Positions 1 through 19,683 of a stretch of DNA of 64,000 nucleotides are shown piece by piece. Position numbers and translations under genes: made by a program. Each line of letters starts with the position of its first letter. The first letter of the stretch is position 1. The notes below the pieces were generated by a model. That model searched no databases. It was not told the DNA's origin and saw only the letters and a program-made list of their open reading frames with translations. This stretch comes from Neoroseomonas lacus (GTDB taxonomy: Bacteria; Pseudomonadota; Alphaproteobacteria; Acetobacterales; Acetobacteraceae): assembly GCF_014644535.1 (NCBI RefSeq), contig NZ_BMKW01000009.1, forward strand, positions 62,001 to 126,000, given 5' to 3'.

Positions 1-86
1 GGAGAGGCTTTGCACCTCCAAGCCACCCACCAAAGGCCCGAGATCTTTGGAAACCGATACTTGGTGCACGGTGCCGCGGCCAGGAC
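1..86. repeat. Family-1 intergenic element, copy A (partial)
   Basis: The window opens inside a copy of the dispersed family-1 element. An imperfect GGAGAGGC/GCACCTCC hairpin is at 1-19, the CCAAAG...CTTTGG hairpin at 30-50, and then the conserved flank GGAAACCGATACTTGG and CGCGGCCAGGAC. Similarity to copies G (42454) and D (12329) fades after about 86, so this copy is truncated or decayed on the right and may extend left of the window. Confidence 0.75.
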
Positions 87-434
87 TAATGTCCTGAGCC
101 GGCTTTCCCACAAGCGACTTGAGGTTCCGGAAAAAAACCGCACCTCCCGACGAACTGCTGGAACCGCCTGAATGTTCGCGGTATGTTGGGAATATCAAGC
201 GACATCTACGAAGGCGGTCCATCGTGCTTGGTTGGATAAGAGATTAAAATCCTAAAATCTTAAAATTAACAACATCAACCGCTTGGCGCCATGCCGCGGC
301 CGCACGGCCCGGATTCTCGCGGTCGTCATGTTTGGCGCGCGTCGTCCTCCCGCCCAATCTCTCATGTCCTGCACCCGGTTCCGGCCGTCCAAGGTGTCCG
401 GCAACAGGTGAGGAACAATGGCGGCGAGAGGCTC
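87..434. other. Intergenic stretch with an AT-rich patch
   Basis: No convincing gene is seen. The overlapping short ORFs have the skewed Arg/Pro composition of shadow frames in GC-rich DNA. Positions about 241-275 are almost pure A/T, which stands out sharply from the rest of the window; this could be a promoter region or a remnant of transferred DNA. Confidence 0.5.
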
Positions 435-457
435 GGAGAGGGACCGCGCCCCTCTCC
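435..457 (-). terminator. Hairpin downstream of the M20 hydrolase gene
   Basis: Perfect 8-bp stem GGAGAGGG / CCCTCTCC with a 7-nt loop, about 18 bp beyond the stop codon of the minus-strand gene at 475. There is no T-tract, so it may be only a 3'-end hairpin. It resembles the outer hairpins of family-1 elements. Confidence 0.4.
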
Positions 458-474
458 AACGAACCGCGCCTACG

Positions 475-1644
475 TCAGCGCGGCATCTCCTGTTCCGCCA
501 GCCTGGCGAACAGCGACGACCCCAGCGGGATCAGGTCATCGTTGAAGTCGTAGCGCGGGTTGTGCAGCGACACGGAATGCCGCCCGCCATCCCCCTGCCC
601 GATGCCGATGAAGCAGCCCGGCCGCGCCAGCAGCATGTAGGAGAAATCCTCCGCCCCCATGCGCGGCGGCGCATGGCGCAGCACCTTCGCCTCGCCCAGC
701 ACGGCGGCGGCGGCCAGCGCGGCGCGCTCGGTCTGCGCGGCGTGGTTCACGGTGGGCGGATAGCCGCGCTGGAAGGACAATTCGGCCCTGGTGCCATGCG
801 CCTCGGCGGTGGCACGCACGATCTGGTGCAGCCGCGCCTCGACCATGTCCTGCACCTCCGGCTTGAAGGTGCGCACGGTCCCATTCAATTCCGCCACTTC
901 CGGGATGACATTGCCCGCCGAACCCGCATGGAACTGGCAGATGCTGATCACCGCGCTGTCCAGCGGATCCATCGACCGCGAGACGATCGACTGCACCGCG
1001 ACGACGATATGCGCGCCGACCAGCACCGGGTCGATGCAGGATTGCGGGCGCGAGGCATGCCCGCCCTTGCCATGCACGGTGATGTTGATGCGGTCGGCCG
1101 CCGCCAACACCGGACCGGCGACGATGCGTGCCTCGCCCAGCGGCAGTTCCGGCGTGTTGTGCATCCCATAGACGGCATCGCAGGGGAAGCGGTCGAACAG
1201 CCCTTCCTCGACCATCACCCGCCCGCCGCCGCCGCCTTCCTCCGCCGGCTGGAAAATGAAGTGGACGGTGCCGTCGAAATTCTTCGTCTCCGCGAGATAC
1301 CGCGCGGCGCCGAGCAGCATGGTGGTGTGCCCGTCGTGCCCGCAGGCATGCATCTTCCCCGCATTGGTCGAGCGGTAGGTGAAATCGTTGGTCTCCTCCA
1401 TCGGCAGGCAATCCATGTCGGCGCGGAAGCCGATGGAGCGCCCCGAGGACCCGTTGCGCAGCACGCCCACCAGCCCGGTGCCGGCGATGCCGCGATGCAC
1501 CTCGATCCCCCAGGCCTGCAGCTGCTGCGCTACCATCTCCGACGTGCGTTGCTCCTGGAAGCCGAGTTCCGGATGGGCGTGGATGTCCCGGCGCGTCGCC
1601 GTCAGCTCGGGGTGGAAATCAGCGATCCGATTGATGATGGGCAA
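475..1644 (-). CDS. M20 family amidohydrolase (hippurate hydrolase / aminoacylase type)
   Basis: Metal-dependent cytoplasmic amidohydrolase of the M20D group, predicted to release an acyl group from an N-acyl amino acid or similar amide. The 389-residue product starts at a TTG (1644-1642) with GGGGGAA about 7 nt upstream; the frame stays open further upstream but those residues look non-coding. HAHPELGF lies near residue 23, the metal-site Cys101-Gly-His103 in HACGHDGH, and the catalytic Glu pair in FQPAEEGGGG near 135; MGAEDFSYML near the C-terminus supplies a further metal ligand. Length matches the family. The class III aminotransferase next door is transcribed the same way about 100 bp upstream. 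The substrate cannot be told from sequence. Confidence 0.9.
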   Translation of the reverse strand: MPIINRIADFHPELTATRRDIHAHPELGFQEQRTSEMVAQQLQAWGIEVHRGIAGTGLVGVLRNGSSGRSIGFRADMDCLPMEETNDFTYRSTNAGKMHACGHDGHTTMLLGAARYLAETKNFDGTVHFIFQPAEEGGGGGRVMVEEGLFDRFPCDAVYGMHNTPELPLGEARIVAGPVLAAADRINITVHGKGGHASRPQSCIDPVLVGAHIVVAVQSIVSRSMDPLDSAVISICQFHAGSAGNVIPEVAELNGTVRTFKPEVQDMVEARLHQIVRATAEAHGTRAELSFQRGYPPTVNHAAQTERAALAAAAVLGEAKVLRHAPPRMGAEDFSYMLLARPGCFIGIGQGDGGRHSVSLHNPRYDFNDDLIPLGSSLFARLAEQEMPR

Positions 1645-1747
1645 GGTCGTTCCCCCGCATGAGGACGTTGTTATCCGCCAAAGGTGGCGTCGTTCGCGGC
1701 ATGCATCCAGCCCACCGCGATCGATAACCGCTATGTCGTGACGGCCG

Positions 1748-3079
1748 TCACACCCCGGCGATGGCGGCTTCCACCGCATCGCCGAACCGCTCGACGATCA
1801 TCCCGATCTCCGCTTCCGTCACCACATAGGGAGGCGCCAGGATCACGTGGTCGCCATGCTTGCCGTCGATGGTGCCACCCATCGGGTAGCAGGCGAGGCC
1901 ACGGTCAAAGGCTTCCTTCTTGATGCGCTCGTTCAGCGCCAGCGCCGGGTCGAACACCGCCTTGCTGGCGCGGTCGCGCACCAGCTCGATCGCCCAGAAC
2001 AGGCCGCGGCCGCGGATGTCGCCGATATTGGCGTGGTTGCCGAGCCGTTCGGTCAGCCCTTGTTCCAGCAGCGCGCCCATCGCCTTCACATTGTCGAGCA
2101 GCTTCTCGTCGCGGATCACTTCCTGCACCGCCAGCGCCGCCGCGCAGGCGACCGGATGCGCCTGGTAGGTGTGGCCGTGCTTGAAGGTGCCCGACCCCTT
2201 GGTCAGCGCCTCCATCACCCGGCCATGCACCAGGATACCGCCGATCGGCTGGTAGCCGCCGCCGAGCCCCTTGGCGATCACCTGGATGTCGGGCGTCACC
2301 CCTTCCTGTTCCCAGGCGTGCAGCGTGCCGGTGCGCCCCATCCCCGACATCACCTCGTCGAGGATCAGCAGCGCGCCATGACGTTCGCACACCGCCTTCA
2401 TCGCCGGGAAATACCCCGGCAGCGCGGTGGCGCAGCCGAGCGTCGCCCCCACCACCGTCTCGGCGCAGAAGGCGATGACGTTGTGTGGCCCGAGGCGCTG
2501 GAATTCGCCTTCCAGCTCCTCCGCCAGCCGCGCCACGTAGTCGGCGTCGGTCTCGTCGTCGCGCCGGTCGCGATAGGCATAGCAGGGCGAGACATGGCTG
2601 AAGGCATCCGACAGGATCGGCGCATAGGGCGCGCGCCGCATCGCATTGCCGCCCGCCGCCAGCGCGCCCAGCGTATTGCCGTGATACGACTGCCGCCGCG
2701 CAATGAACTTGGTCCGCGAAGGCTGCCCAACTTCGAGCGCCCATTGCCTGGCCATCTTCAGCGCGGATTCCATCCCCTCCGAACCCGACGACACGAAATA
2801 GGCATGGGTCAGCCCGCCCGGCGCATGGCCGACCAGCATATCGGCGAGGCGTTCGGCGCTCTCGGCGGTGAACAGCGCGGTATGCGCGTAGCACAGCTTG
2901 TCAATCTGGTCCTTCATCGCCTGGACCACATGTGGATGCCCGTGGCCAAGACAGGCGACGGCCGCCCCGCCCGACCCGTCGATCACCTCATGCCCGGAGG
3001 CGTCGCGCAGCCAGATGCCGCGGCCGGAGACGGCGATGGCGGGCGCCTCGCGCAGGTTGCGATGGACGACATGGGTCAT
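1748..3079 (-). CDS. Class III PLP-dependent aminotransferase
   Basis: 443-residue aminotransferase of the omega-aminotransferase group, using pyridoxal phosphate to move an amino group between an amine or omega-amino acid and a keto acid. The N-terminal GHGHPHVVQAM region, SSGSEGMESALKMARQ, ILDEVMSGMGRTGTLHA and the PLP-lysine motif VIAKGLGGGYQPIGG are all present in the usual order. The start at 3079 is set by GAAGGAG 7 nt upstream; a longer open frame exists but has no ribosome site. It is followed on the same strand by the M20 amidohydrolase, so the two may act in sequence on an acylated amine, but that is inference. Confidence 0.9.
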   Translation of the reverse strand: MTHVVHRNLREAPAIAVSGRGIWLRDASGHEVIDGSGGAAVACLGHGHPHVVQAMKDQIDKLCYAHTALFTAESAERLADMLVGHAPGGLTHAYFVSSGSEGMESALKMARQWALEVGQPSRTKFIARRQSYHGNTLGALAAGGNAMRRAPYAPILSDAFSHVSPCYAYRDRRDDETDADYVARLAEELEGEFQRLGPHNVIAFCAETVVGATLGCATALPGYFPAMKAVCERHGALLILDEVMSGMGRTGTLHAWEQEGVTPDIQVIAKGLGGGYQPIGGILVHGRVMEALTKGSGTFKHGHTYQAHPVACAAALAVQEVIRDEKLLDNVKAMGALLEQGLTERLGNHANIGDIRGRGLFWAIELVRDRASKAVFDPALALNERIKKEAFDRGLACYPMGGTIDGKHGDHVILAPPYVVTEAEIGMIVERFGDAVEAAIAGV

Positions 3080-3245
3080 GGGCTGGCTCCTTCGGGGCGC
3101 CATCCTGCCCCTCTCGCGGCAATCGGCAAGACGGGCCGGCGCGTCATTGCGCGGCCGCGCGAGAATTCTTCGCTCCGGTCGCGAATAAACCGCCACCCCG
3201 CCCGGTCTTCATGACGGACACCCCGAAACCGAAGGGATTACCGCC

Positions 3246-4169
3246 ATGGACGAACCCACGCGCCGCGACACGCTCGAGTGCATGCTCTGGGCCGGCACCG
3301 GCCTGCTCTGGAGCGTGGTGGGCGGCGTGCCCCGCGCCAGCCTGATCGGCACCGCCGAGGCCGCCACCGCCGCCGCCGCCGGCTTCACCTTCGCCCAGGT
3401 CAGCGACAGCCATCTCGGCTTCGCCACGCCGCTGTACAACGATGTCGCCGGCACCACGGCCGAAGCGCTGCGCGCGCTCGGCAGTTCGACGCAGCGGCCA
3501 TCGTTGGTCCTGCACACCGGCGACGTCACGCATCTGTCGAAGGCCGCCGAATTCGACGCCGCACAACAGATCTTCGGCGGCTCCGGCCTGGAGATGCGCT
3601 ACGTGCCCGGAGAGCACGACGTCATCGACGATGACGGCCGCGCCTTCCTCGAACGCTTCGGCCGCGGCGCCGGGCCTGGCGGCTGGTCAAGCTTCGATGC
3701 CGGCGGCATCCACTTCATCGGCCTGAACAATGTGGTGAACCTGCAGGCCGGTGGCCTCGGCCAGATCGGCGCCGCGCAGCTTGCCTTCCTCGAAGCCGAT
3801 CTGCGCGGGCGGTCCGCCAGCCAGCCCATCGTCGTCTTCGCCCATATCCCGCTATGGACGATCCACGCGCCCTGGGGCTGGGGCACCGAGGATTCCGAAC
3901 AGGCGATGCGCCTGCTCGCGCGCTTCGGCTCGGTCACCGTGCTGAACGGCCATATCCACCAGATCATCCAGAAGGTGGAAGGCCACGTCGCCTTCCACAC
4001 GGCACGGTCCACCGCCTTCCCGCAGCCCGCGCCGGGAAGCGCGCCCTCGCCCGGGCCGATCCGCAACCTGCCGGCCGACCGGCTGCGCAGCGTGCTCGGC
4101 GTCACCCGCGTCAGCCGGGTCGAGGGCAACCGCCCCCTCGCCATCATCGACACGCCGCTCGGCGCCTGA
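3246..4169 (+). CDS. Tat-exported calcineurin-like metallophosphoesterase
   Basis: Predicted periplasmic metallophosphoesterase of 307 residues. The N-terminus has a twin-arginine motif (TRRDTLECMLW) and a hydrophobic segment ending near an A-E-A-A site at about residue 40. The dinuclear-metal motifs follow in order: DSHLG, HTGDVTH, PGEHD (in place of GNHD), FAHIPLW and LNGHIHQ. AAGGGA lies 8 nt before the ATG. It heads a tight cluster with a cupredoxin (4-bp gap), a cytochrome b, an ECF sigma factor and an anti-sigma factor, so it is probably co-expressed with an envelope redox function. The substrate is unknown. Confidence 0.85.
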   Translation: MDEPTRRDTLECMLWAGTGLLWSVVGGVPRASLIGTAEAATAAAAGFTFAQVSDSHLGFATPLYNDVAGTTAEALRALGSSTQRPSLVLHTGDVTHLSKAAEFDAAQQIFGGSGLEMRYVPGEHDVIDDDGRAFLERFGRGAGPGGWSSFDAGGIHFIGLNNVVNLQAGGLGQIGAAQLAFLEADLRGRSASQPIVVFAHIPLWTIHAPWGWGTEDSEQAMRLLARFGSVTVLNGHIHQIIQKVEGHVAFHTARSTAFPQPAPGSAPSPGPIRNLPADRLRSVLGVTRVSRVEGNRPLAIIDTPLGA

Positions 4170-4173
4170 CGCG

Positions 4174-4509
4174 ATGTCCCTGCCCCCGATGCGCCGGCGC
4201 GAGCTGTTCGCCGGCGCCGCCCTCACGCTCGCCGTCATCCCGGCGGCGCGCGCCGCGACGGCGAGGATCGTCATCGACGACTACGCCTTCCAGCCGATGG
4301 AGCTGCGCATCGCCGCCGGCACCGCCGTCACCTGGGAGAACCGCGACAGCAGCCCGCACAACGTCGTCAGCAGCGCGACACCGCGCGTCTTCCGATCGCG
4401 CACCATGGGCACCGGCGAGGGCTTCAGCTTCACCTTCGCCGAACCTGGCACCTACCGTTATTTCTGCTCCCTGCATCCGCATATGCAGGCGGTGGTGATG
4501 GTCACATGA
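4174..4509 (+). CDS. Tat-exported cupredoxin (type I copper protein)
   Basis: 111-residue blue-copper protein. The N-terminus carries a Tat-type motif (RRRELFAG) and a short hydrophobic segment ending at AARA near residue 27. A plastocyanin-like domain fills the rest: the His ligand is in SSPHNV and Cys, His and Met are in FCSLHPHM, a complete type I copper site. It is probably a small periplasmic electron carrier. It overlaps the following cytochrome b gene by ATGA, so the two are translationally coupled and likely redox partners. Start ATG at 4174; Met at 4189, just before the twin arginines, is an alternative. Confidence 0.85.
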   Translation: MSLPPMRRRELFAGAALTLAVIPAARAATARIVIDDYAFQPMELRIAAGTAVTWENRDSSPHNVVSSATPRVFRSRTMGTGEGFSFTFAEPGTYRYFCSLHPHMQAVVMVT

Positions 4510-5069
4510 CGGCGGCGCAAACCCACAGCGCCGCCGCACGGGCGATGCATTGGGCCAGTGCCGGACTGATCCTGGTCGTCTTCGCGGCGATCTGGATGCC
4601 GGTCGATGAGGCCTCCGACACCGCCTACGCCGTCAAGCTGATGGTGCATCGCTCGGCCGGCGTGCTGGTCTGGCTGTTGACCCTGGTGCGGCTGGTCCGG
4701 CGCGGTGTCGGCCACAGCCCGGCCTTGCCGATGGATGTGCCGCGACTGCAACGCATCGCCGCGCGGTTGCATGCGGCGGCGCTGTATCTGCTGTTGCTGG
4801 CCCAGCCGCTGTTCGGGCTGATCGCCAGCCAGGCGGCCGGCAATACGGTGCGACCCTTCGGCCTCTTTGCCATCCCGACGCTGGTGGCGCGCGATCGGGC
4901 GCTCGCCCATGCCTGCTTCGGCCTGCACGAGGCGGTGGCGACATTGCTGCTGGTGTTCATCGGGGCGCATGTGGCGGCGGCGCTGCATCATCACTATCTG
5001 CGACGCGACGGCGTGCTGGTGAGCATGCTGCCCGGCCTGCGGCGGCTGGATGCGCGACACGGCAATTGA
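4506..5069 (+). CDS. Cytochrome b561 family membrane protein
   Basis: 187-residue integral membrane di-haem cytochrome b with about four hydrophobic helices. Candidate haem-ligand histidines are in AMHWASAG (helix 1), LMVHRSAGV (helix 2), ARLHAAAL (helix 3) and FGLHEAV with GAHVAAALHHH (helix 4), the pattern of the CybB/b561 family that passes quinol electrons across the membrane. The start codon overlaps the cupredoxin stop by ATGA, which suggests electron transfer from the cytochrome to the cupredoxin. Its 3' end is close to the ECF sigma gene. Confidence 0.85.
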   Translation: MTAAQTHSAAARAMHWASAGLILVVFAAIWMPVDEASDTAYAVKLMVHRSAGVLVWLLTLVRLVRRGVGHSPALPMDVPRLQRIAARLHAAALYLLLLAQPLFGLIASQAAGNTVRPFGLFAIPTLVARDRALAHACFGLHEAVATLLLVFIGAHVAAALHHHYLRRDGVLVSMLPGLRRLDARHGN

Positions 5070-5088
5070 GCGGAGGATCTCCGACAGC

Positions 5089-5631
5089 ATGCTTCCGCGA
5101 TCGGCCCCGCCGCCCGGGCTCGAGCAGGCCATCACCGGCAATCTGGACGCGGCGTTCAACCTCGCCCGCTGGCTCCTGCGCGACCCGAGCGCGGCGGAGG
5201 ATGTGGTGCAGGAATCCGCCCTGCGCGCGCTGCGCTATGCCGAGGGCTGGCGTGGTGGCGACGGTCGCGCCTGGCTGCTGCAAATCGTGCGCAACACCGC
5301 CTATGACTGGCTGTCGCGCCGCCGCGCGCGGGGCGAGGTCGCGCTGGAAGCCCCGGCCGGCGACGTCGCCGGTCCACTCGATGACCTGCCCGACCCCGCA
5401 CCCGATCCAGAAGCCGTCCTGGCCGAGACGCAGGCGCGCGAGGGTCTCGATGCCGCCGTCGCCGCGCTGCCGGTCGAGTTGCGCGAATGCCTCGTGCTGC
5501 GGGAGGTCGAGGAGATGTCCTACCGGGACATTGCCCGCACCACCGGCGTGCCGGTCGGCACCGTGATGTCCCGGCTGTGGCGCGCGCGCCGTGCGCTGGC
5601 GGGCGCCTGTGTGGAAGGAACGACGCCATGA
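5089..5631 (+). CDS. ECF-type RNA polymerase sigma factor
   Basis: About 180-residue group IV sigma factor. Region 2 includes AFNLARWLLRDPSAAEDVVQE and the segment ending AWLLQIVRNTAYDWL; a variable linker follows, then region 4 with LPVELRECLVLREVEEMSYRDIA and the helix-turn-helix TTGVPVGTVMSRLWRARR. ATG 5089 is preferred because GGAGGA lies 11 nt upstream; ATG 5050, inside the cytochrome gene, would add 13 residues. It overlaps the next gene, an anti-sigma factor, by ATGA. Such pairs usually control their own operon and an envelope-stress or redox regulon. Confidence 0.9.
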   Translation: MLPRSAPPPGLEQAITGNLDAAFNLARWLLRDPSAAEDVVQESALRALRYAEGWRGGDGRAWLLQIVRNTAYDWLSRRRARGEVALEAPAGDVAGPLDDLPDPAPDPEAVLAETQAREGLDAAVAALPVELRECLVLREVEEMSYRDIARTTGVPVGTVMSRLWRARRALAGACVEGTTP

Positions 5632-6380
5632 GCGAGCCCTGCGAGGACAGGATCCTGCTGCTGCAGGCCGACCACGATGGCGAGCTCGATGCCGGCCGCG
5701 CCGCCGAACTGGCGACGCATGTCGCGACCTGCCTGGGTTGTGCCGCGGCGCGGCGCGACCTCGCCGCGGTCTCGACGCGGTTGCGGCGGGAGCTGCCCTA
5801 CCATCGCGCGCCGGACCGCTTGCGCGCGGCGATCACCGCGCAGATGGCGCCCGTCGCCGCGCCGCCACCGCCACGACGTGCGCTGCTGCGTCGACAGATT
5901 CCGGCCTTCGTCGCCGGCATGGCGGCGGCGGCGAGCGTCGCGCTGGTCGTGCTGCCCCGTCGTGGCAGCGATGTCGCGGAGCAGGTACTGGGAAGCCATC
6001 TGCGGTCTTTGCAGGCGGCGCATCTGTTCGATGTGGCGTCGTCCGACCGGCATACGGTGAAGCCGTGGTTCGATGGCAGGCTGGATTTCGCGCCACCGGT
6101 GCGCGACCTGGCCGCGCAGGGATTTCCGCTGGAAGGCGGACGGCTCGACCATATCGAAGGGCGGGCGGTGGCGGCGCTGGTGTATCGGCGGGCGCGGCAC
6201 GTCATCAATCTGTTCCTGTGGCCGTCGCACAGCCTGCGGCCGAGCGAGCCGGCGGCGTCGACCATCTCCGGCTATCACCTGCTGCGCTGGAGGGAAGGCG
6301 ACATGGTGTTTTGGGCCGTGTCCGACGTGAACCTTGCGGAGCTGGAGGAATTTGTGCGGCTGTGGCGCGCGGCGACGTGA
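5628..6380 (+). CDS. Zinc-finger (zf-HC2) transmembrane anti-sigma factor
   Basis: 250-residue anti-sigma factor. The cytoplasmic N-terminus carries the HxxxCxxC zinc motif (THVATCLGC, about residues 31-39) of the ZAS/zf-HC2 group that clamps ECF sigma factors. One membrane segment follows (IPAFVAGMAAAASVALVVL, about residues 88-106), then a periplasmic domain of about 140 residues. GGAAGGA precedes the ATG, which overlaps the sigma stop codon, as is typical of co-regulated pairs. The start is fixed by this overlap rather than by the longer open frame. The inducing signal is not evident. Confidence 0.88.
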   Translation: MSEPCEDRILLLQADHDGELDAGRAAELATHVATCLGCAAARRDLAAVSTRLRRELPYHRAPDRLRAAITAQMAPVAAPPPPRRALLRRQIPAFVAGMAAAASVALVVLPRRGSDVAEQVLGSHLRSLQAAHLFDVASSDRHTVKPWFDGRLDFAPPVRDLAAQGFPLEGGRLDHIEGRAVAALVYRRARHVINLFLWPSHSLRPSEPAASTISGYHLLRWREGDMVFWAVSDVNLAELEEFVRLWRAAT

Positions 6381-6443
6381 TGCGTGTGCACGGCGCCGCT
6401 GTAGGTGCGGGGAAATTATACCGGCGACCCTTGACCTTGAATG

Positions 6444-6678
6444 GAGGAACCGAGAGGGGCGTTGCCCCTCTCGCGGTCTCCTCACCAAAGGCCTAAGGGC
6501 CCTTGGAAACCTCGACTTAGCGCTTTGCGTAGCGGTCAGCAGGGGTGGCGAAACCCGCCCTTGCGCACGAAGCGCGCGTCGCGGCTACAGGATGCGTTCA
6601 GTGCCCAGCGCAAAAAGAGGGCATTCCAAAGTGCACTGCACTTTGGCGGGGCGGTTTGGAGGGGCGGCGCCCCTCCAA
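6444..6678. repeat. Family-1 intergenic element, copy B (complete)
   Basis: Full-length copy of about 235 bp lying between convergent genes. Perfect hairpins are CGAGAGGGGC/GCCCCTCTCG at 6451-6473 (loop GTT), CCAAAGTGC/GCACTTTGG at 6626-6646 (loop ACT) and TTGGAGGGGC/GCCCCTCCAA at 6656-6678 (loop GGC). A near-perfect CCAAAGGCC-type hairpin is near 6485-6506. The core TTGCGCACGAAGCGCG is at about 6571. The middle stem differs from copies D and E but stays fully paired. Confidence 0.85.
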
Positions 6679-6715
6679 CCTTCCCCCTCCGGTCAACAGA
6701 CTGGGCCGCCGGCGT

Positions 6716-6757
6716 GAGTTTCCTGCCGGGATGCTCGAGGGGCGCCGCCCCTCGACC
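6716..6757 (+). repeat. Family-2 hairpin element
   Basis: GAGTTTCCTGCCGGGATGC is followed by the perfect stem TCGAGGGGC/GCCCCTCGA (loop GCC, 6735-6755). The unit abuts the stop codon of nupC at 6758, so on the minus strand it could act as its 3'-end hairpin. The same unit occurs at about 47195 (inverted) and 62815 (inverted), with a degenerate tandem repeat beside the latter. Confidence 0.7.
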
Positions 6758-8005
6758 TTACGGCGCCGTCAACACTCCCACCACCGCCCCGGTCATGCAG
6801 CAGGCGATGGTCGCCGAGATCAGCGACGGCAGCCCCAGCTTCACGATATCCTGCCGCCGTTCCGGGCACATCGCCGTCATCCCGCCGACCATAATCCCGA
6901 CCGAGCCAAGGTTGGAGAACCCGCACAGCGCATAGGTCAGGATCAGCCGCGAGCGATCAGACAGCCCCGCCCCGCCCGACTGCGCGAGGGCGAGGTAGGA
7001 GACGAATTCATTCACCACCATCTTCACACCGAGCGAGGCGCCGACTGTCGCCGATTCCGCCACCGGCACGCCCATCGCCCAGGCGACCGGCCACAGCACC
7101 CAGCCCATGATGGCCTGCAAGGTCAGCCCCGTGAGCGGTTCCAGGGCCAGGTTGATCAGCGCGACGATCGCGACGAAGACGATCAGTGACGCCATGATGC
7201 CGAGCAGCAAGTTCAGCCCATCCTGCGTGCCGCGCACCAGCGCATCCATCGAGCTGTCGTAAAGCCTTTCGGGAATGCCATCGCCGCCTTCGGTGGCGGT
7301 CTCGCCCGCCGCCGGCGGGATCATCAGCAGCGCGGCAAGGATCGCCGCCGGGGCGGAAACCAGCGACGCCGTCAGCAACTGCCCCGCCGCGTCGGGCACC
7401 ACGGGCGCGATGATCAGCGCATAGACCACCAGCGTATTGCCACTGATCGTCGCGAGCCCCGCCGTCATCACCACGAACATCTCGGAGCGCGTGAGCTTCG
7501 CCAGCCAGGCGCGGATCATCAGCGGCGCTTCGACCATGCCGACAAACACATTGGCCGCCACGCCAAAGCCAGCTGCGCCACCCAGGCCGAACAGCCGGCG
7601 CAGCACGCCTGCCATGCCCTTCACGATCGCCGGCAGCACCCCCCAGTGATACAGCACGGAGGAGAGCGCCCCGACCACCAGCACCAGCGGCAGCGCCTGG
7701 AAGAACAGGATGAAGGAAGCACCGGGGAAGGGTTCCGGAAACGGCAGCGGCCCGCCGCCGAGATAGCCGAATACCAGCGACGTGCCCGCCCTGGTCGCGG
7801 TGGCGAGCGCATTGACCCCATCGCCGATCACCGCAAAGACGCGGCGCGCCCAGGGGACGTTCAGTAGCACGGCCGCCAGCGCCAATTGCAGCGCCAGGCC
7901 TGAGACGAACACGCGCATCGGCACGCCGCGGCGGAAGCCACCCAACGCCCAGGCAAGAAGGGCCAGCAGCAGCAGGCCGATGGCGGATTGTGCCTGGAGC
8001 ATCAT
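6758..8005 (-). CDS. Concentrative nucleoside transporter (NupC/CNT family)
   Basis: 415-residue inner-membrane permease, predicted to import nucleosides by H+ or Na+ symport. Many hydrophobic helices are visible. The N-terminal segment is followed by a gate domain (LSSVLYHWGVLPAIV), then GAAGFGVAANVFVGMVEAPLMI, FVVMTAGLATISGNTLVVYA and a C-terminal ASLGVKMVVNEFVSY segment; these VEAP- and NEFV-type motifs line the substrate site in CNT proteins. Length fits the family. Its ATG overlaps the rmuC stop by four bases (ATGA), so rmuC and this gene are translationally coupled. Confidence 0.9.
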   Translation of the reverse strand: MMLQAQSAIGLLLLALLAWALGGFRRGVPMRVFVSGLALQLALAAVLLNVPWARRVFAVIGDGVNALATATRAGTSLVFGYLGGGPLPFPEPFPGASFILFFQALPLVLVVGALSSVLYHWGVLPAIVKGMAGVLRRLFGLGGAAGFGVAANVFVGMVEAPLMIRAWLAKLTRSEMFVVMTAGLATISGNTLVVYALIIAPVVPDAAGQLLTASLVSAPAAILAALLMIPPAAGETATEGGDGIPERLYDSSMDALVRGTQDGLNLLLGIMASLIVFVAIVALINLALEPLTGLTLQAIMGWVLWPVAWAMGVPVAESATVGASLGVKMVVNEFVSYLALAQSGGAGLSDRSRLILTYALCGFSNLGSVGIMVGGMTAMCPERRQDIVKLGLPSLISATIACCMTGAVVGVLTAP

Positions 8006-9507
8006 GATTCGTCGCCCTCGCCCGGGAGTTCATCCGCCTCGATCTCGAGCAACACCGCAGCGCGCGACCCGTCCACCGCATCGACGCCGCGCAGCTTGCG
8101 CGCCACCGCCCGCGTGCGGACTTGTGCCGCGTCGATGGTGTTGCCCACCGCGGCGACCTGCTTGCGGAGACGCACCAGCACCTCGTCCATCTTGCCCATC
8201 TCGGCCTTGGTGGCGCCGAGCAATTCCCGGACCATGTCGGCCTTCTCGCCGAGCGCGATCGTCACATGCCCCATCTGGATGGTGCGCAGCATGGCCGGCA
8301 GCAGCGAGGGCCCCAACACCAGCACGCGATGCGCCCGGCCGATATCCTCGATGGCGCCAGGAATGCGCGCGATTTCGGCATACAGCCCCTCGGTCGGCAG
8401 GTAGAGCACGGCGAATTCCACCGTCAGCGGCGGGCGGATGTATTTGGACGCGATCTTCGCCGCCTCGCCGCGCACACGCACCTCCAGGGCGCGGCGCGCG
8501 GCCTTTTCGCCATCGGCGTCGCCGGCCTCGGAGGCGATCACCAGCCGGTCCCAATCCTCGGTCGGGAATTTCGCATCGACGGCGAGGAAGACGTCGCGCC
8601 CGCCTTCATTCGGCATGCGGATGGCGAACTCGACGAGTTCGCTGCTGTCCTCGGAGAGCTTCTTGTTCGTTTCATACGACCCGGCCGGCAGGATGTCGTC
8701 GAGCAGCGCGCGCACCTGCGCCTCCCCCCAGCCGCCGCGCGTCTTCACATTCGAGAACAGCCGCTTGATGTCGACGATCTGCGTGGTGACGGCCTGCACA
8801 TCCGTCATCGCCTTCAGCACCTGGGTGAACTGGTCGGAAACGCGGGCAAAACTCTCGGTCATCTGCTTCTCGACGGCGGTCTGAAGCTGCTCATTCACCG
8901 TCTTCTGAATCTCGGCGAGGCGCGCCTCATTGCTCTCGCGCAGTTCCTTCAGCTTGGCGTCGAGCAGGTCGCGGCCGCGTGCATTCTCGGCCGCCTGCGC
9001 TTCCTGCAACTTCGCCAGGCCTTCCGCGAAGGCGAGGCGGATCTCCGCAATCCCCTGCGTCACGTCGCGGCGCAGCAGGGCGGTGTCGTCCTTGTGCTCG
9101 GTCAGTGCCTTGACCACGGCGGCGCGTTGTTCGGCCATGGCGCGGGCATCCTGCGCCAGGCGTTCGGTCAGCTGCGCGGCATCGGCGGCCAGGCGATCGA
9201 GCACCGCCTTTTCCTGCACCGAGAGCCGGTCGGCGATGCGGCCGATCCCCTCCCCCAGCGCCTTGGTCTGGTCGAGTGCCCCGTCACTGACGCGCTCACC
9301 AATCGCCGCCGCCTCACGCGACAGGCCGCGTTCGAATTCGGCGGGCAGCGCGGCGATGCGTTCGCCCTGCCGGTCCAGCACCGATTGCAGGTCGGTCAGC
9401 CGCTGCGCCAGCACCGGGTCCGTTGCCGGCCGGCGCAGCAGCAACGCCACCAGCAGCAGCACGACAAGCAGCAGGCCGCCCAGTGTCGCCAAATTCTCGG
9501 CCGCCAT
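8002..9507 (-). CDS. rmuC: DNA recombination protein RmuC
   Basis: 501-residue RmuC-family protein, implicated in limiting DNA rearrangement at inverted repeats and distantly related to PD-(D/E)xK nucleases. An N-terminal membrane anchor (LGGLLLVVLLLVALLL) is followed by a long coiled coil (about residues 30-230) and the conserved RmuC domain containing GGWGEAQVRALLDDILPAGSY, FLAVDAKFPTEDWDRL, VLYLPTEGLYAEI and LGPSLLPAMLRTI. It is the upstream member of a coupled pair with the nucleoside transporter, an unexpected partner. In a genome rich in hairpin repeats this function is of interest. Confidence 0.92.
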   Translation of the reverse strand: MAAENLATLGGLLLVVLLLVALLLRRPATDPVLAQRLTDLQSVLDRQGERIAALPAEFERGLSREAAAIGERVSDGALDQTKALGEGIGRIADRLSVQEKAVLDRLAADAAQLTERLAQDARAMAEQRAAVVKALTEHKDDTALLRRDVTQGIAEIRLAFAEGLAKLQEAQAAENARGRDLLDAKLKELRESNEARLAEIQKTVNEQLQTAVEKQMTESFARVSDQFTQVLKAMTDVQAVTTQIVDIKRLFSNVKTRGGWGEAQVRALLDDILPAGSYETNKKLSEDSSELVEFAIRMPNEGGRDVFLAVDAKFPTEDWDRLVIASEAGDADGEKAARRALEVRVRGEAAKIASKYIRPPLTVEFAVLYLPTEGLYAEIARIPGAIEDIGRAHRVLVLGPSLLPAMLRTIQMGHVTIALGEKADMVRELLGATKAEMGKMDEVLVRLRKQVAAVGNTIDAAQVRTRAVARKLRGVDAVDGSRAAVLLEIEADELPGEGDES

Positions 9508-9663
9508 CGCGAACTCCCCCGACTCGATGGGGAAAGTCTCGCATCACCGCCGCGCCGGGGCGAGGCTGCTCATGCCAACCGCACGAAGGATGCACCTTGG
9601 CGAGACTGCTACTCGAGCCTTGGCTTGGCGCGCGGGCCCAATCGACGGCCTGCGCACCATGGA

Positions 9664-10272
9664 TCAGGGGATCCGCGGTTCGCCCTGCGCCGGCACCAGC
9701 ACCAGCCGGCCCGTCGCGACGCCGAAATGCGCCCCGTGCAGCGTCAGCCGGTCGGAGGCGACGGCTTCCAGCACCCAGGGGAAGGTCATCAGATTCTCGA
9801 GCGAAATGCGCACCGCCTCATGCTCGGCGATCTCCTGGCGCTGCTCAGGCGCGTCGCAGCGCAGCGCCACGGTGCGTGCGCGCTGCGCGATACCCATCCA
9901 GCCGGCGACGAAGTCCTGCGCCTCAGGCGGCGCGCCGCCCAGCAGGGCGCTGATGCCGCCGCACAAAGCGTGGCCCATAACCACGACGCGCTCCACCTTC
10001 AGCACTCGAACGGCGAATTCCACCGCTGCCGAGGTGCCGTGGAACTGCGCATCCGGCATGTAGGGCGGCACCAGATTGGCCACGTTGCGGACAACGAACA
10101 ACTCGCCCGGGCCGGCCGAGAAGATCATCTGCGGATCAACGCGGCTGTCCGAACAGGCGATGACCATCGTGTGCGGGCGCTGGCCGCGGGCAGCGAGTTC
10201 CTCGAAGCGGGCGCGCTCGCGTGGCCAGGTCTCGGCGCGGAAGCGGCGGTAGCCGTCGATCAGGGCGTCCAT
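9664..10272 (-). CDS. Beta-class carbonic anhydrase
   Basis: 202-residue zinc enzyme interconverting CO2 and bicarbonate in the cytoplasm. Zinc ligands are Cys40 in ACSDSR, His101 and Cys104 in GHALCGG; the Asp42-Arg44 dyad is present, so the active site is complete. The start is placed at the methionine of MDALIDGYRRF, where family similarity begins; the open frame runs 15 residues further up without a ribosome site. Flanking genes (rmuC, purH) are unrelated; a family-1 repeat lies just upstream of the gene. Confidence 0.92.
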   Translation of the reverse strand: MDALIDGYRRFRAETWPRERARFEELAARGQRPHTMVIACSDSRVDPQMIFSAGPGELFVVRNVANLVPPYMPDAQFHGTSAAVEFAVRVLKVERVVVMGHALCGGISALLGGAPPEAQDFVAGWMGIAQRARTVALRCDAPEQRQEIAEHEAVRISLENLMTFPWVLEAVASDRLTLHGAHFGVATGRLVLVPAQGEPRIP

Positions 10273-10410
10273 GTGGCGGGTCCTGCGGTGGGGGGAGCGC
10301 CTTTGTCGGCAAGGCACGGAACTGGAGGGGATCTTTCCCTCAAGATCGCCCCTTCATGGTGCCGTCGACAATGCTGCGCATTGCCGATGGGATCCCGATA
10401 AAGCGGTGAC

Positions 10411-10589
10411 CTTTGGAATGCCATCCGTTGGCGATGAGCGCCGCAGTCAGAACGCCGGCCGGAATCTCCCGCTGCGCAAAGCGACTGCCCAAGTGCAGCA
10501 GAATGCCCGCATTGCCCTGCGCCAGGTATCGGTTTCCAAAGGCCCTTAGGCCTTTGGTGGGGTGGTCTGGAGGGGCGATGCCCCTCCAG
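10411..10589. repeat. Family-1 intergenic element, copy C (arms inverted)
   Basis: About 179-bp copy with arms in the opposite orientation to copies B, D and G. From the left: CTTTGGAATGCC, a core with CTGCGCAAAGCG, the reversed GGTATCGGTTTCC flank, the perfect stem CCAAAGGCC/GGCCTTTGG (10536-10557, loop CTTA), GGTGGGGTGG, and the stem TGGAGGGGC/GCCCCTCCA (loop GAT) ending 18 bp from the purH stop. It separates purH from carbonic anhydrase. Confidence 0.8.
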
Positions 10590-10606
10590 CTCCGGACCGT
10601 CGCCGA

Positions 10607-12184
10607 TCAATGCCGGAAATGCCGCATCCCGGTGAACACCATCGCCAGCCCGGCCTCATCTGCCGCCGCGATCACCTCGCCATCGCGCATCGACCCGCCT
10701 GGCTGGATCACTGCCGTGGCACCGGCGGCAGCGGCCGCCTGCAAGCCATCGGCGAAGGGGAAGAAGGCGTCGGACGCGACCACGCTGCCACGCGCCAGCG
10801 GCTCGGGCAGGTCGGCAGCCTTGGCGGCTTCCTCGCTCTTCCACGAGGCGATGCGGGCGCTGTCCACGCGGTTCGGTTGCCCGCCACCGACACCGACCGT
10901 CGCCTCGCCCTTGGCATAGACGATGGCGTTGGACTTCACATGCTTGCAGACGCGGAAAGCGAAGAGCAGGTCGCGCAGTTCCTGCGCGGAGGGCGCGCGC
11001 TTGGTCACCACCTTCAGCGTTTCGGCATTCACCTGCCCGGCATCCCGCGACTGCGCGAGGAAACCGCCTGAGACGGTCTTGAGGAACATCCCCGCCGCCG
11101 CCGGGTCCGGCAGACCGCCGGTCAGCAGCAGGCGGAGGTTCTTCTTCTTCGCGAAGATGGCGCGCGCGGCTTCATCGGCGTCAGGGGCGATCACCACCTC
11201 GGTGAAGATGGCGGCGATCCTCTCCGCCGCCGCCGCATCCAGCACGCGGTTCGCCGCGACGATGCCGCCGAAGGGCGAGACCGGGTCGCACAGGAAGGCG
11301 CGGTCCCAGGCGGTCACCAGATCCTCGGCAACGGCGACGCCGCAGGGCGTGGCGTGCTTGACGATGACGATGGCCGGGCGGTCGAACTCCGCGACGCATT
11401 CATAGGCCGCGTCGGTGTCGTTGATGTTGTTGTAGGACAATTCCTTGCCCTGGACCTGCGTCGCCGTCGCGACGCCGGGCCGGGCCGAACCATCGACATA
11501 GAAGGCCGCCTGCTGGTGCGGGTTTTCGCCATAGCGCAGCGACTGCCGCAGCACGCCCGCGACGGCGAGGCGCGGCGGGAAGTCCTGCTTCTCCTGCCGG
11601 GCGAACCAGCCGGAGATCGCCGCGTCATAGGCGGCCGTGCGGGCATAGGCGGCGGCGGCGAGGCGGCGCCGGGTGGCCAGCGTCGTGCCGCCCTGGGCTT
11701 CGATCTCGGCCTGGATCTCGGCGAAATGCGTTGGTTCGGTCAGCACCGCGACGCCGGCATGGTTCTTCGCCGCGGAGCGGATCATCGCCGGGCCGCCGAT
11801 GTCAATATTCTCGATGCAATCGTCGAAATCGGCGCCCTTCGCGACCGTCGCCTCGAAGGGGTAGAGGTTCACCGCCACCAGGTCGATCGGCGCGATGGCG
11901 TGTTCTTCCATCTGCGCCAGGTGCTCGGGCAGGTCGCGCCGGCCGAGGATGCCGCCATGCACCTGCGGCACCAGCGTCTTGACCCGCCCGTCGAGGATTT
12001 CGGGGAAACCCGTGTGCTCCGACACGTCCTTCACCGGCACGCCGGCTTCGCGCAACGCGCGGGCGGTGCCGCCGGTGGACAGGATCTCGACCCCTCGCGC
12101 GGCGAGGAAACGGCCGAATTCGATGAGCCCGGTCTTGTCCGAGACGGAGAGAAGGGCGCGGCGGAGGGGGAGGAGGTCGCTCAT
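10607..12184 (-). CDS. purH: Bifunctional AICAR formyltransferase / IMP cyclohydrolase
   Basis: 525-residue enzyme for the last two steps of IMP synthesis. The N-terminal IMP cyclohydrolase (MGS-like) domain has [38 protein letters not shown] and NLYPFE. The C-terminal AICAR transformylase domain has [61 protein letters not shown] and a final GVVFT-type [14 protein letters not shown]. The start is at [10 protein letters not shown] because the upstream open frame has no family similarity. Length is typical. Confidence 0.97.
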
Positions 12185-12328
12185 GGCGGGCGCATAGACC
12201 CGGCGGGGCCGGCCTGCAACCAAGGGCACCGGATGACGTCCATTCGGCACGATGGAAGAGGGTGCGAAGCCCCGCGCCCGGCATTGGTGCCCGAAGGGCC
12301 ATATACTGGCGGCTCATTGTCCTGACCG

Positions 12329-12564
12329 GTGGGAACGAGAGGGGCTTTGCCCCCTCTCGAGCTCTCCCCACCAAAGGCCTAAGGGCCTCTGGACACCAAT
12401 ACTTGGCGCCGGGCGCCCCGGTCAGGAACGACGCCGGGACCTGCTGCTGCACACGAAGCGCGTTGCGCGGGCGCAACATATGTTCTCCGCCCGGCACCAA
12501 TAGATGGCTTTCCAAATGACACTGTCATTTGGCGGGGTGGCTTGGAGGGGCGGCGCCCCGCCAA
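12329..12564. repeat. Family-1 intergenic element, copy D (complete)
   Basis: About 236-bp full copy between purH and nhaA. Left hairpin CGAGAGGGGC..CCCCTCTCG (12335-12359), then the CCAAAGGCCTAAGGGCCTCTGG hairpin (about 12371-12392), core CACACGAAGCGCG, the middle stem CCAAATGAC/GTCATTTGG (12512-12532, loop ACT) and a right hairpin TTGGAGGGGC/GCCCCGCCAA (12543-12564). The loop ACT matches copy B although the stem sequence differs. Confidence 0.85.
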
Positions 12565-12571
12565 TCTCCCT

Positions 12572-13774
12572 TCACCCCCCGCGCACCTGCTTCGGCATCG
12601 GCGCCAGCCGCAGCACCACCCACCCCAGCAGCCCGGCGACCAACGACCCACCCAGAATGCCGATCTTCACCCCCGCCTGCAGCTGCGGGTAATCGGCGAA
12701 GGCGAGCAACCCGATGAACAGGCTCATGGTGAAGCCGACGCCGCAGAGCAGTGCGACGCCCACCATGTGCGTCCACGAGCAGCGAAAGGGCAGTGTTGCG
12801 ACACCGAGCATGATGGCCAGCGCCGAGGCCCCGAACACGCCGACCAGCTTGCCGATAAGCAGCCCCAGCGCGACGCCCATCGGCAGGGGCTGGAGGATGG
12901 CGTCAAGGCCGAGGCCGGCAAAGGACACGCCCGCGTTGGCGAAGCCGAAGACCGGCACGATGAGGAATGCGACCGGCTTCTGCAGCGCGTGTTCGAGCAT
13001 GTGCAGCGGCGAATGTTCCGTTTCGTCCGGCTTGCCGGGCGCCGGCTGCAGCGGAATGGTCAACGCCAGCAGCACACCGGCGATCGTCGCGTGCACCCCC
13101 GAGCGCAGCACGAGGAACCACAGCGCGGCGCCGAGCAGCAGATACAGCCACACCCGCATGACGCCGGCGCGGTTCATCACCACCAGCGTCGCGAAAGTCG
13201 CCGCCGCCAGGCCGAGATTCAGCATCGAGATCTCGCCCGTGTAGAACAGCGCGATGATCACCACGGCGCCGAGATCGTCGATGATCGCCAGCGCGGCGAG
13301 GAACACCTTCAGGGCCGCCGGCACGCGCGGCCCGAGCAGCGACATCACGCCGAGCGCGAAGGCGATATCCGTCGCCGTCGGGATAGCCCAGCCGCGCGCC
13401 GTCTCGGGCGAGCCCGCATTGAAGGCGAGATAGATCAACGCCGGCACCAGCATGCCGCCGGCCGCCGCAATGCCGGGCAGGGCGCGGTTCGACCAGGATG
13501 CGAGCTGGCCATCGAGCATCTCGCGCTTGATCTCGAGCCCTACGAGCAGGAAGAACACCGCCATCAGCCCGTCATTGACCCAGTGGGAGACGTTCATCGG
13601 GCCGAGATAGGTGGCCAGCACGCCGAAATAGGTGGGCGCCAGCGCCGAATTGGCGATGACCAGGGCAATGGCGGCCGCCGCCATCAGGATCAGGCCGCCG
13701 GCCGCCTCGCTGCCCAGGAAGCCGCGCATCAGCGACATCGGGCGCCGGGCCAGGGACGTCACCGGCTTATCCAT
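12572..13774 (-). CDS. nhaA: Na+/H+ antiporter NhaA
   Basis: 400-residue sodium/proton antiporter for pH and Na+ homeostasis in the inner membrane. The family hallmarks are present: the N-terminal [50 protein letters not shown] and [17 protein letters not shown], which holds the adjacent transport aspartates. About 11-12 hydrophobic helices are visible. The start gives a normal cytoplasmic N-terminus. A family-1 element ends only 7 bp from its stop codon and may provide its 3'-end hairpin. Confidence 0.96.
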
Positions 13775-13950
13775 GGTGCGTCAGAGCCATGGCGTGGCGC
13801 GAAGCCAGGTTCGTCGGCATGAGGCTGGGTGGCACGGTCATGGGCGCGCATCTCCGATACCGGCGGCCCGACCGGCATGGAAAGCCTGCCCGGTCGCATC
13901 GCGCGGCCGAACACCCACGAACCATGTCGCATCGTGACGCCCGATCCGCA

Positions 13951-13966
13951 ACCCCGAAGCGGGGCT
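13951..13966 (-). terminator. Short hairpin after the TPR gene
   Basis: Stem CCCCG/CGGGG with loop AAG, about 10 bp beyond the stop codon of the minus-strand TPR gene. Position suits a 3'-end hairpin; there is no run of T, so factor-independent termination is uncertain. Confidence 0.4.
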
Positions 13967-13975
13967 GTCATGCGC

Positions 13976-15319
13976 TCAGTGCGGGATGATGCGCGCCGCC
14001 TCGGCATAACCGGCGCGTCGGTCGGGCGGCACAGGATGCCGGCCCGCCACGCGTTCGAGCAGCATGCGCGCATCCTCCTGCGCCCCCGCCTTCATCGCGG
14101 CATCGAGGAACAGCTGCTCCAGCACATCCTGCTGCGCGTGGCTGCCGCCCATGCGATGCATCACGCTGAGCGCCGGGCGCATCGCCGCGACCGCGCCGGC
14201 GTGGTCGCCCTGCGCATGGGCCAGTACCGCCTCGCAGACCGGGATCGCCGCGTCACGCAGGATGGGCGCGACAGTGCCCGGCTGCGTCGCCGCCTCGCGC
14301 ATCGCATCGAGCATGCGCGCGGCGGCCTGCGTACGGCCCGTCGCGGTCAGTGCCATCATCCAGTGCGGCAGGGTGAAGGTGGACAGGCAGTCGCCGATGC
14401 GCGCCTCGGCCTTGTCGGCAAGTTCGACCCAACGATCGCCGACATCGACGCCATGGCGTTGCAGGCGGAACAGCATCGAGGCCGCGTTCTGCACATCGAT
14501 GTACAGGTCAGGCATCGCCTGCAACAGCGCGCTGCCCTGGTTGCGGAAGCCGCGATCGTACAGGCCGAGCACCTCGCCATGCTCGCCGCGCTCCAGGTGA
14601 TACATGGCGCGGTGCCACCACAGATGGTGCATCAGGTTCGACCCGCCTTCCCAATGCGGCTCCAGCGTCTTCAGCCAGGCGATGCCCTCGCCGCGACGGC
14701 CCTGCATTTCCAGGATATGCGCCACGCCATGCGTCGCCCAGAGATCGCCGGGATCGAGCGTGACGGCGGCGCGGCCGGCTTCCTCGGCGACCTGGTAGTT
14801 GCCGCATTCCTCATTGGCGAAGCAGCGACAGGCGAGGATGGAGCCATAGCCCGGCATCGCCGCAGACCAGGCGGGCGCGACGGCATCGACGGCGCGCAGC
14901 ATCTGCCCGGCGCGGCCGAGCCAGAAGGCACAGAAGTGATGCAGCCGGAACGCCAGGATGTCGTGCGGATGCGCCGCCATGATGGCTTCCCACGCACCGA
15001 GCGCGCCCTCGACATCGCCGTCGGCCCACAGCGCGAGAGCGGCGGCATGCGCCCGTTCGCGGTCGGTGCCGGCATGGCGTGCGGCGGCGGAAGCGGCGGA
15101 CCGCGCGCGCGGCACCAGCGCGGTGTTGTAGGCGAGCATGAAAAAGACGCCGCCCAGCACCAGCCCCATCGGCATCTCGGGGTCAAGCTTCATCGCCGCC
15201 TTCAGCCGCTGCCCGGCATCGGCGCGATACTTCAGATAGGCCTCGACCACATCGTCATAGGCGACGACGGCGGCATCCGAGGCCGCGGTGATGGTCAGTC
15301 CCCGGGCATCAATGGCCAT
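13976..15319 (-). CDS. Tetratricopeptide-repeat protein, TTC38-like
   Basis: 447-residue helical-repeat protein resembling the TTC38 family found in animals and bacteria. Alpha-alpha repeats run through most of the sequence, with hallmark stretches FRLHHFCAFWLG, ATHGVAHILEMQGR, GSNLMHHLWWHRAMYHLE and LPHWMMALTATGR. No catalytic motif or signal peptide is seen, so it is probably a cytoplasmic scaffold or binding protein of unknown role. The start at 15319 has GGGAGGA 8 nt upstream; the longer frame begins without a ribosome site. It is monocistronic, with a hairpin after its stop codon. Confidence 0.8.
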   Translation of the reverse strand: MAIDARGLTITAASDAAVVAYDDVVEAYLKYRADAGQRLKAAMKLDPEMPMGLVLGGVFFMLAYNTALVPRARSAASAAARHAGTDRERAHAAALALWADGDVEGALGAWEAIMAAHPHDILAFRLHHFCAFWLGRAGQMLRAVDAVAPAWSAAMPGYGSILACRCFANEECGNYQVAEEAGRAAVTLDPGDLWATHGVAHILEMQGRRGEGIAWLKTLEPHWEGGSNLMHHLWWHRAMYHLERGEHGEVLGLYDRGFRNQGSALLQAMPDLYIDVQNAASMLFRLQRHGVDVGDRWVELADKAEARIGDCLSTFTLPHWMMALTATGRTQAAARMLDAMREAATQPGTVAPILRDAAIPVCEAVLAHAQGDHAGAVAAMRPALSVMHRMGGSHAQQDVLEQLFLDAAMKAGAQEDARMLLERVAGRHPVPPDRRAGYAEAARIIPH

Positions 15320-15462
15320 GCGATGGTCCTCCCTTTCCGCCCTTCGTTCGGGGCGCCGTCCAGAGCAGACCCGATCAGGTCGAAGCACCTGCGCGGGTGA
15401 AGATACTCGCAGAAACAACAGCCTGGAGAGGGCCCCGTGAGCCGGAGCGAACGGAGGCCTCC

Positions 15463-17093: not shown

Positions 17094-17099
17094 CGGGCG

Positions 17100-17849: not shown

Positions 17850-17893
17850 CGTGAGACCACCATAGCGTGCCGGGCGCGAATACGGGAGTGACC

Positions 17894-18784: not shown

Positions 18785-18842
18785 GGCGGCCACCTGGCTG
18801 GGCTACAGCCGAAGCACCAACCAAGGGCAAGGAACGCGGCGC

Positions 18843-19619: not shown

Positions 19620-19654
19620 TGGCGGCCGGCATGCAGGGTCCGCGCGGCGAGTGC

Positions 19655-19683
19655 TTGACGCGCGGCGCCGCGCGGCATTAGAA
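19655..19683 (+). promoter_or_regulatory. Probable sigma-70 promoter for rpsT
   Basis: TTGACG (19655-19660), a 17-nt spacer and TTAGAA (19678-19683) resemble a housekeeping promoter, 72 bp before the rpsT start. The spacer is itself a GC palindrome (GCGCGGCGCCGCGC), which could be incidental or an operator. Confidence 0.55.

Follow-up and report, generated by a model that had tools for sequence, protein, structure and literature searches.

What is the hairpin-rich sequence at positions 6444-6678 of this stretch, and why does it recur between genes across the 64,000 nt analyzed here (hereafter, the window)? The initial annotation described a dispersed composite element with covarying stems and offered three identities for it: a non-autonomous mobile element, a terminator module or an RNA. 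The explanation that we favor, at a probability of about two in three (0.68), is that the family consists of non-autonomous, MITE-like fold-back mobile elements built from two-hairpin modules and served by a DDE-type transposase in trans. Copies are dispersed and symmetric, have sharp ends in Neoroseomonas eburnea, are in part flanked by 3-bp TNA duplications, occupy spacers that are filled in some genomes and empty in others, and conserve local pairing.

Direct inspection showed that the eight sites named in the initial annotation all hold copies of one repeat and that, as claimed, they lie between genes: none overlaps any called gene by more than 10 nt (genes were called with our own codon-based caller). 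The quoted stems of the CCAAA hairpin were also exact, namely CCAAAGTGC/GCACTTTGG in copy B, CCAAATGAC/GTCATTTGG in copy D and CCAAAGGGC/GCCCTTTGG in copy E. The extent given for copy B was too short, however, as the unit continues about 25 nt further left and about 36 nt further right. Copy B thus spans 6419-6714 on the plus strand as a full composite element between outer inverted repeats, its ends being set by analogy with the sharp ends of N. eburnea copies; its flanking triplets differ (TTA at 6416-6418, TGA at 6715-6717). On the same strand follow one another hairpin 1 (6451-6473, CGAGAGGGGC/GCCCCTCTCG), hairpin 2 (6485-6506, of the CCAAAGGCC type with one mismatch), a core (6507-6625) with a stem adjoining hairpins 2 and 3 (TTGGCGCC/GGCGCCAA type in the consensus) and TTGCGCACGAAGCGCG, the covarying hairpin 3 (6626-6646, CCAAAGTGC-ACT-GCACTTTGG) and hairpin 4 (6656-6678, TTGGAGGGGC/GCCCCTCCAA).

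Two further plus-strand copies are full: copy D (12304-12565; modules at 12340-12396 and 12507-12559, with the CCAAATGAC hairpin 3 at 12512-12532) and copy G (42427-42722; both outer ends recognizable, modules at 42464-42517 and 42630-42680). Copy A (1-55, plus strand) is cut by the window start and retains one two-hairpin module (module HMM match 4-55, E 1e-6). The remaining four lie on the minus strand. Copy E (21731-21945, outer limits approximate) has modules at 21740-21780 and 21888-21942, and no more than about 10 nt separate its left end from the stop codon of a gene ending at 21729. Copies C, F and H each have one better preserved and one degenerate half: copy C (10411-10590) has an intact module at 10531-10585, copy H (62985-63165) has one at 63107-63160 next to a divergent core and a degenerate other end, and copy F (36801-36940), which lies between divergent genes, is degenerate with a partial module at 36883-36915 and a hairpin 2 interrupted by another hairpin (GTTGCTTCGCAAC). 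Inserts inside hairpin 2 were seen elsewhere as well: a GTTGC..GCAAC hairpin in copy F and locus L024, about 105 nt in L010 and about 260 nt in L009 (BLAST coordinates).

Within the window, CCAAAN{9,13}TTTGG matches seven times against 0.04 expected from shuffles and AGGGGCN{3,4}GCCCCT eight times against 0.05 expected, two of the latter matches (6738 and 47199) belonging to another hairpin family. A third hairpin family, in which a CGAGGGGC hairpin adjoins CAGGAAACTCAGTTTCCTG, was noted at 6715-6762, 47196-47271 and 62748-62886. The window also contains an nhaA-I riboswitch on the minus strand at 13858-13916 (Rfam RF03057, 42 bits) and, at 31304-38239, several related genes that presumably resemble TctC-type binding proteins, with direct repeats at 31822, 32793, 33752 and 37786.

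The series of hairpins originally described stands with one correction: hairpins 2 and 3 mirror each other within a single inverted-symmetric element, the right half of which is the left half inverted, and the whole folds back on itself. A complete element measures about 290 nt (285-300 nt), with hairpins 1 and 2 on one side of the core, hairpins 3 and 4 on the other and an outer repeat at each end. The outer terminal inverted repeat begins with TACC and is present in part of the copies, the core is mostly 90-140 nt long, and on each side of it sits a two-hairpin module with the GGGGC hairpin outermost and the CCAAA hairpin inside. When 30 copies from the own genome were aligned in one orientation, a hairpin 1 of the GAGAGGGGC type was followed by CTCTCCCCA and the CCAAAGGCC hairpin 2; the ends of the core, which carries TTGCGCACGAAGCGCG, pair with each other (TTGGCGCC/GGCGCCAA type); and the right half consists of hairpin 3 (CCAAA and a variable tip), GGGGTGG, hairpin 4 (GGAGGGGC) and the outer inverted repeat. 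Hairpin 2 is CCAAAGGCC in 48 of 55 copies, whereas hairpin 3 varies widely at its tip. Seven of the 30 BLAST loci (L009, L010, L012, L013, L021, L023 and L024) are absent from the alignment used for pairing statistics (A1) because one half is missing or interrupted. Folded as single-stranded DNA, copy L183 of N. eburnea pairs end to end (z -10.7) and copy B reaches z -4.8; the RNA fold of one copy has z -3.7.

Scans with profile HMMs and blastn, which undercount very degraded copies, recovered further copies both in the own genome and in relatives. At least 45 BLAST matches were found in the own genome (40 of 283 candidates scored), and 0.79 Mb of stretches fetched from it contain 94 two-hairpin modules (profile HMM, E<1e-3), arranged as 32 facing inverted pairs and 30 singles. 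C9 (310,778 nt) holds 42 modules and 400,000 nt of C6 hold 33, giving 75 in 0.71 Mb, or about one per 9.5 kb; C6, C21 and C15 had been chosen after BLAST matches there, and C21 and C15 were left out of this density. The predicted hundreds of copies per genome are thus an extrapolation, the density giving about 530 (from C6) to 860 (from C9) modules per 6.4 Mb if uniform.

Outside the own genome, the element was matched in 28 of 34 other genomes of the genus and in none of 24 genomes beyond it (29 of the 59 sampled, the own genome included). The module alone reaches further, with matches at E<=1e-8 in 54 of the 395 genomes sampled from the order; every one of these belongs to the own family, and together they represent 14 of 84 genera. 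Its exact pattern occurs in 43 stretches of named genomes across several genera, among them Neoroseomonas alba, eburnea, terrae, oryzicola, soli and marina, Siccirubricoccus phaeus and soli, Belnapia arida, Paracraurococcus ruber and an uncultured Rhodospirillales MAG. In other species, inverted module pairs surround different cores (L075, L077, L083, L084 and L099; by eye). Plasmids and phages gave no match to one N. eburnea copy used as query. In nine relatives (L087-L094 and L096), the same short gene has a module after its 3' end, and the sequence beyond the module differs between genomes (by eye), an arrangement that is possibly an island boundary.

The clearest sign of mobility comes from the ends of the element. 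Among eight closely similar copies of N. eburnea (G003), similarity stops sharply at TNA/TACC on one side and GGTA/TNA on the other (by eye). Both ends could be recognized with at most two mismatches in 25 of 92 distinct copies, and in this set, which includes doubtful end matches, the flanking triplets are identical in eight copies against 2.8 expected (p=0.0045), compared with zero to one of 25 for control triplets at shifted positions. Ten of the 25 are G003 copies, of which four have identical triplets and nine agree at the middle base. As the identity is direct rather than mirrored (TGA...TGA, TCA...TCA), it reflects a duplication and not a longer inverted repeat. Intact ends are unevenly distributed: both match with at most one mismatch in 9 of 15 copies of G003, 4 of 48 of the own genome (G000) and 1 of 29 of N. 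alba (G001), and neither end carries the outer repeat in 35 of 48 copies of G000 and 25 of 29 of G001. The mobile-element reading is therefore supported for those copies that keep intact outer ends, on the strength of sharp boundaries, inverted repeats, 3-bp duplications and filled or empty spacers. When duplications were sought blindly at unaligned ends, no clear signal emerged, probably owing to indels, and ends were anchored on the inverted repeat instead; the ends of G001 copies could not be delimited.

A second dispersed repeat of G003 (L211-L220 and L275-L294) has the same outer ends. It reads TGATACCAGCGGCACGAG...GCGGCCGCTGGTATGA, measures 138-194 nt in 15 of 17 copies and has identical flanking triplets in 11 of 17. 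The common end pattern GATRCCARYGGCMCG, with one mismatch allowed, occurs at 110 places in G003 for both families together, against eight for the reversed control pattern. Such ends would be recognized by a DDE-type transposase supplied in trans, which would insert the element at TNA. Three-bp TNA duplications are typical of IS5-type elements (IS1031 group), and the duplications seen here fit that trait; the element ends, however, match none of the 11 DDE_Tnp_1 transposase loci scanned in G003 and G000, a comparison that covers few families in draft genomes. An autonomous partner with the same end pattern was found neither in G003, among the 100 of 110 places listed, nor in four genomes, drafts that may miss one. 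A 1.17-kb candidate end pair in C8 of G003 (L201) was rejected, as its left end resembles the second repeat and the rest appears, by eye, to be ordinary coding sequence.

Orthologous spacers provide a second view of turnover. At site D, the element is present in G000 and G001, and no module lies between the same two genes in G014 and G012. Site B is a less clean case: of the six relatives read, five lack a module and G003 carries a single one, but in the relatives a different gene adjoins the site on the left. Site C carries a partly degraded hairpin element in seven of eight genomes read, with differing cores (by eye), and coincides with a contig break in G014. Among 71 ortholog pairs of gene ends compared between G000 and G001, a module is present in both for three, only in G000 for six, only in G001 for three and in neither for 59 (p=0.024); the 31 pairs compared between G000 and G003 give one, three, two and 25, respectively (p=0.35). 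The occupation of gene ends shared by G000 and G001 and the persistence at site C exceed what pure turnover predicts. At three orthologous gene ends (C9/90, C21/6 and C21/8), one genome has another hairpin family where the other has the present module. The GGTCGGGGGAGG...CCTCCCCCGA type of hairpin, which is followed by C/T-rich tails at 40649-40691 and 53125-53167 of the window, is the occupant at C9/90 and C21/6.

A preference for TNA has a particular consequence in GC-rich genomes, where TGA is both a TNA site and the usual gene end (551 of 700 called genes). Insertion at a TGA stop would duplicate the stop codon and leave the gene intact, and such events, combined with the purging of deleterious insertions, would leave some copies immediately downstream of genes. 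Consistent with this, outer ends lie exactly after an in-frame stop codon (six TGA, one TAG) in seven of the 68 end matches that have an upstream gene call (out of 91 distinct ends), many of the 68 being chance matches, and in 6 of the 31 with at most one mismatch. Stop codons make up 14.5% of TNA sites outside coding sequence in G000 and 17.8% in G001 and G003 together. The 6 of 31 are not in significant excess of 14.5% (p=0.29), and TNA targeting combined with selection can thus account for the present family. The second G003 repeat falls exactly on a gene's stop codon in 7 of 20 cases, as judged with a self-set coding-score cut-off (>6 over >=40 open codons), which is borderline above TNA targeting plus selection (17.8%, p=0.05); for an earlier, partly overlapping set, the shifted-frame control gave zero, compared with 9 of 17 in frame.

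Covariation was tested in alignment A1, where 94.8% of stem cells are paired across 23 copies. Doubly changed cells number 48, against 18.3 after shuffling (none of 500 shuffles as high), and 13 pairs show a double change against 7.5 (1 of 500); further pair types are no more numerous than in shuffles (352 of 500). The covariation first claimed is thus real, mostly in hairpin 3, which contains 33 of the 48 doubly changed cells at four pairs; hairpins 1, 2 and 4 are nearly invariant. Across several genomes, the inner hairpin could be called in 229 of 263 distinct modules: 150 stems are perfect and include 13 different types, 66 have one mismatch and 13 have two. One-sided changes most often leave an A-C mismatch as read on the gene-sense strand (CCAAAGGCC/GGCCTCTGG in 27 modules, CCAAAGGCC/GGCCCTTGG in nine), which argues against a strict requirement for pairing in RNA from that strand. 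Of 65 copies, 33 have inner hairpins that disagree with each other at two or more of nine positions; in copies with differing inner hairpins, local pairing reaches 8.5 of 9 compared with 6.3 of 9 for arm-to-arm matching, local scores being somewhat inflated by a stem finder that favors local pairing. As local pairing is kept while arm-to-arm matching drops, what is maintained is less the long inverted repeat than the local hairpin. Stem type tracks a core tree of 49 of the 92 distinct copies, in which 27 of 46 inner branches are weak (37 copies were dropped for want of a usable core or both stems and six for unusual core length): 13 changes are needed, against a minimum of four and 21.4 after shuffling (none of 200 as low). 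Independent events are therefore far fewer than copies. The assertion that compensatory change implies selection on folded DNA or RNA holds in so far as local pairing is kept, but stem types follow subfamilies and a mutational mechanism could yield the same pattern. Under selection, local hairpins would be kept since the element needs them to spread or be tolerated, and subfamilies would differ by compensated stems, with single copies decaying afterwards.

How, then, do the other explanations fare? In quasi-palindrome correction, template switching copies one palindrome arm onto the other, and rewriting of this kind would preserve pairing without selection. It is a possible if doubtful source of the covariation: it would account for changes confined to blocks of about 4 bp in the tip half of hairpin 3 and for the prevalence of A-C among one-sided changes, which selection for RNA pairing on the gene-sense strand would not favor, yet the 79 of 229 stems that keep one or two mismatches indicate that correction is not efficient, and the clustering of stem types with the core tree (13 against 21.4) is what subfamilies would produce. 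That the family is a REP/BIME-type repeat moved by a RAYT (IS200/IS605-like) transposase, the form of mobile element first suggested, we consider extremely improbable. Extragenic palindromes, inverted pairs and a preference for convergent and codirectional spacers in G000 all recall such repeats, but the own genome has no Y1_Tnp (PF01797) match in a search that was positive in 5 of 14 control genomes, the hairpin bases of copy B carry no GTAG or CGTC tag (by eye), and the repeat has outer inverted repeats and 3-bp duplications, which are not expected of the RAYT mechanism. Some double changes in the core stem and closing pairs and the RNA fold of one copy would suit a structured non-coding RNA family in many copies. 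This part of the original proposal is very unlikely, as the cores differ at orthologous site C and in other species and the four matches to Rfam 15 are weak and all fall short of the gathering score.

The 3' bias of the G000 copies raises the alternative that the elements are host-selected modules, kept because their outward hairpins stop transcription in the absence of a U tract or shield the 3' ends of mRNAs. In G000, none of 32 inverted pairs lies between divergent genes, as compared with 39 of 168 spacers of at least 200 nt (p=0.001; two of 30 single modules at contig edges were dropped and two of the 32 pairs run into a called gene), 15 of the 19 pairs that occupy codirectional spacers sit closer to the 3' end (p=0.019), and within 80 nt of a gene boundary 60 modules lie at stops and nine at starts. 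The alternate hairpin families at three orthologous gene ends and the retention of a hairpin element at site C in seven of eight genomes would also fit. In the stretches of G001 and G003, however, modules within 80 nt are equally frequent at stops and starts (15 and 15), so the bias of G000 is not general; divergent placements exist in other genomes and at copy F; and selection against other insertions would yield the same 3' bias. Of the modules within 80 nt of a stop, 56 have hairpin 1 on the side of the stop and four are reversed, a bias that follows from the outward position of hairpin 1 in pairs. In codirectional spacers, single modules are not oriented (hairpin 1 on the stop side in 10 and on the other side in six in G000, three to three and five to six elsewhere), and an oriented terminator is therefore not supported. 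A terminator scan of window positions 1-20000 found eight sites against 8.7 after shuffling, none of them any of the four hairpins of copies B, C or D, and one weak terminator-like site within the core of copy D (12462-12477). Of the terminator module proposed at the outset, U-tract terminators at the element hairpins are thus not supported in this part of the window, whereas a looser 3'-end function is compatible with the data. On balance, host selection of this kind appears unlikely. We hold it quite improbable, too, that a transposon-borne outward hairpin pair lands on stop codons and then serves as the transcript 3' end, with the fold rather than the letters being selected and non-homologous hairpin families being interchangeable at the same gene ends.

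Among known systems, the preferred reading as a non-autonomous fold-back element brings the family closest to the bacterial MITEs, which include RUP, NEMIS, ERIC and YPAL and measure 70-300 bp with 15-30 bp inverted repeats, according to PMC3733652. Like these, the present copies are short, non-coding, dispersed and gene-adjacent, with target duplications, presence or absence at orthologous sites and, for 9 of 15 G003 copies under strict matching (4 of 48 in G000, 1 of 29 in G001), sharp-ended terminal inverted repeats; MITE transcripts are said to fold. Unlike these, the element has two further local hairpins per arm and compensated stem types, its module is common to several genera, and no parent IS with the same ends was found in the few families and draft genomes scanned, an absence that weighs little. 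REPs are high-copy extragenic palindromes that favor codirectional and convergent spacers (PMC3733652), a likeness set against the much longer unit, the TNA duplication and the want of both a RAYT in the own genome and a GTAG/CGTC tag in copy B. The Caulobacter intergenic repeats (CIR; PMC2229807) are likewise intergenic and alphaproteobacterial and consist of two linker-joined arms, each an inverted repeat, with a mobility mechanism that is called unresolved there; the present element differs in showing a terminal inverted repeat and TNA duplication in part of its copies. Modular construction is found here as it is in BOX elements. BOX and the terminator-like SPRITE elements of Streptococcus pneumoniae also insert into one another (PMC10969869), another likeness; the present hairpins differ in that no U-tract terminator was seen at them, in their inverted-symmetric composite form and in their unrelated host.

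Our search of the literature on Acetobacteraceae found no report of such dispersed repeats, and the family described here adds a dense repeat system to a group for which we found none. Two questions find a natural test in it: how palindromes remain paired through changes in their sequence, and how an element specific for TNA establishes itself, partly on stop codons, in a genome rich in GC. Should the hairpins also act at transcript ends, transposons would be supplying 3' ends to many genes.
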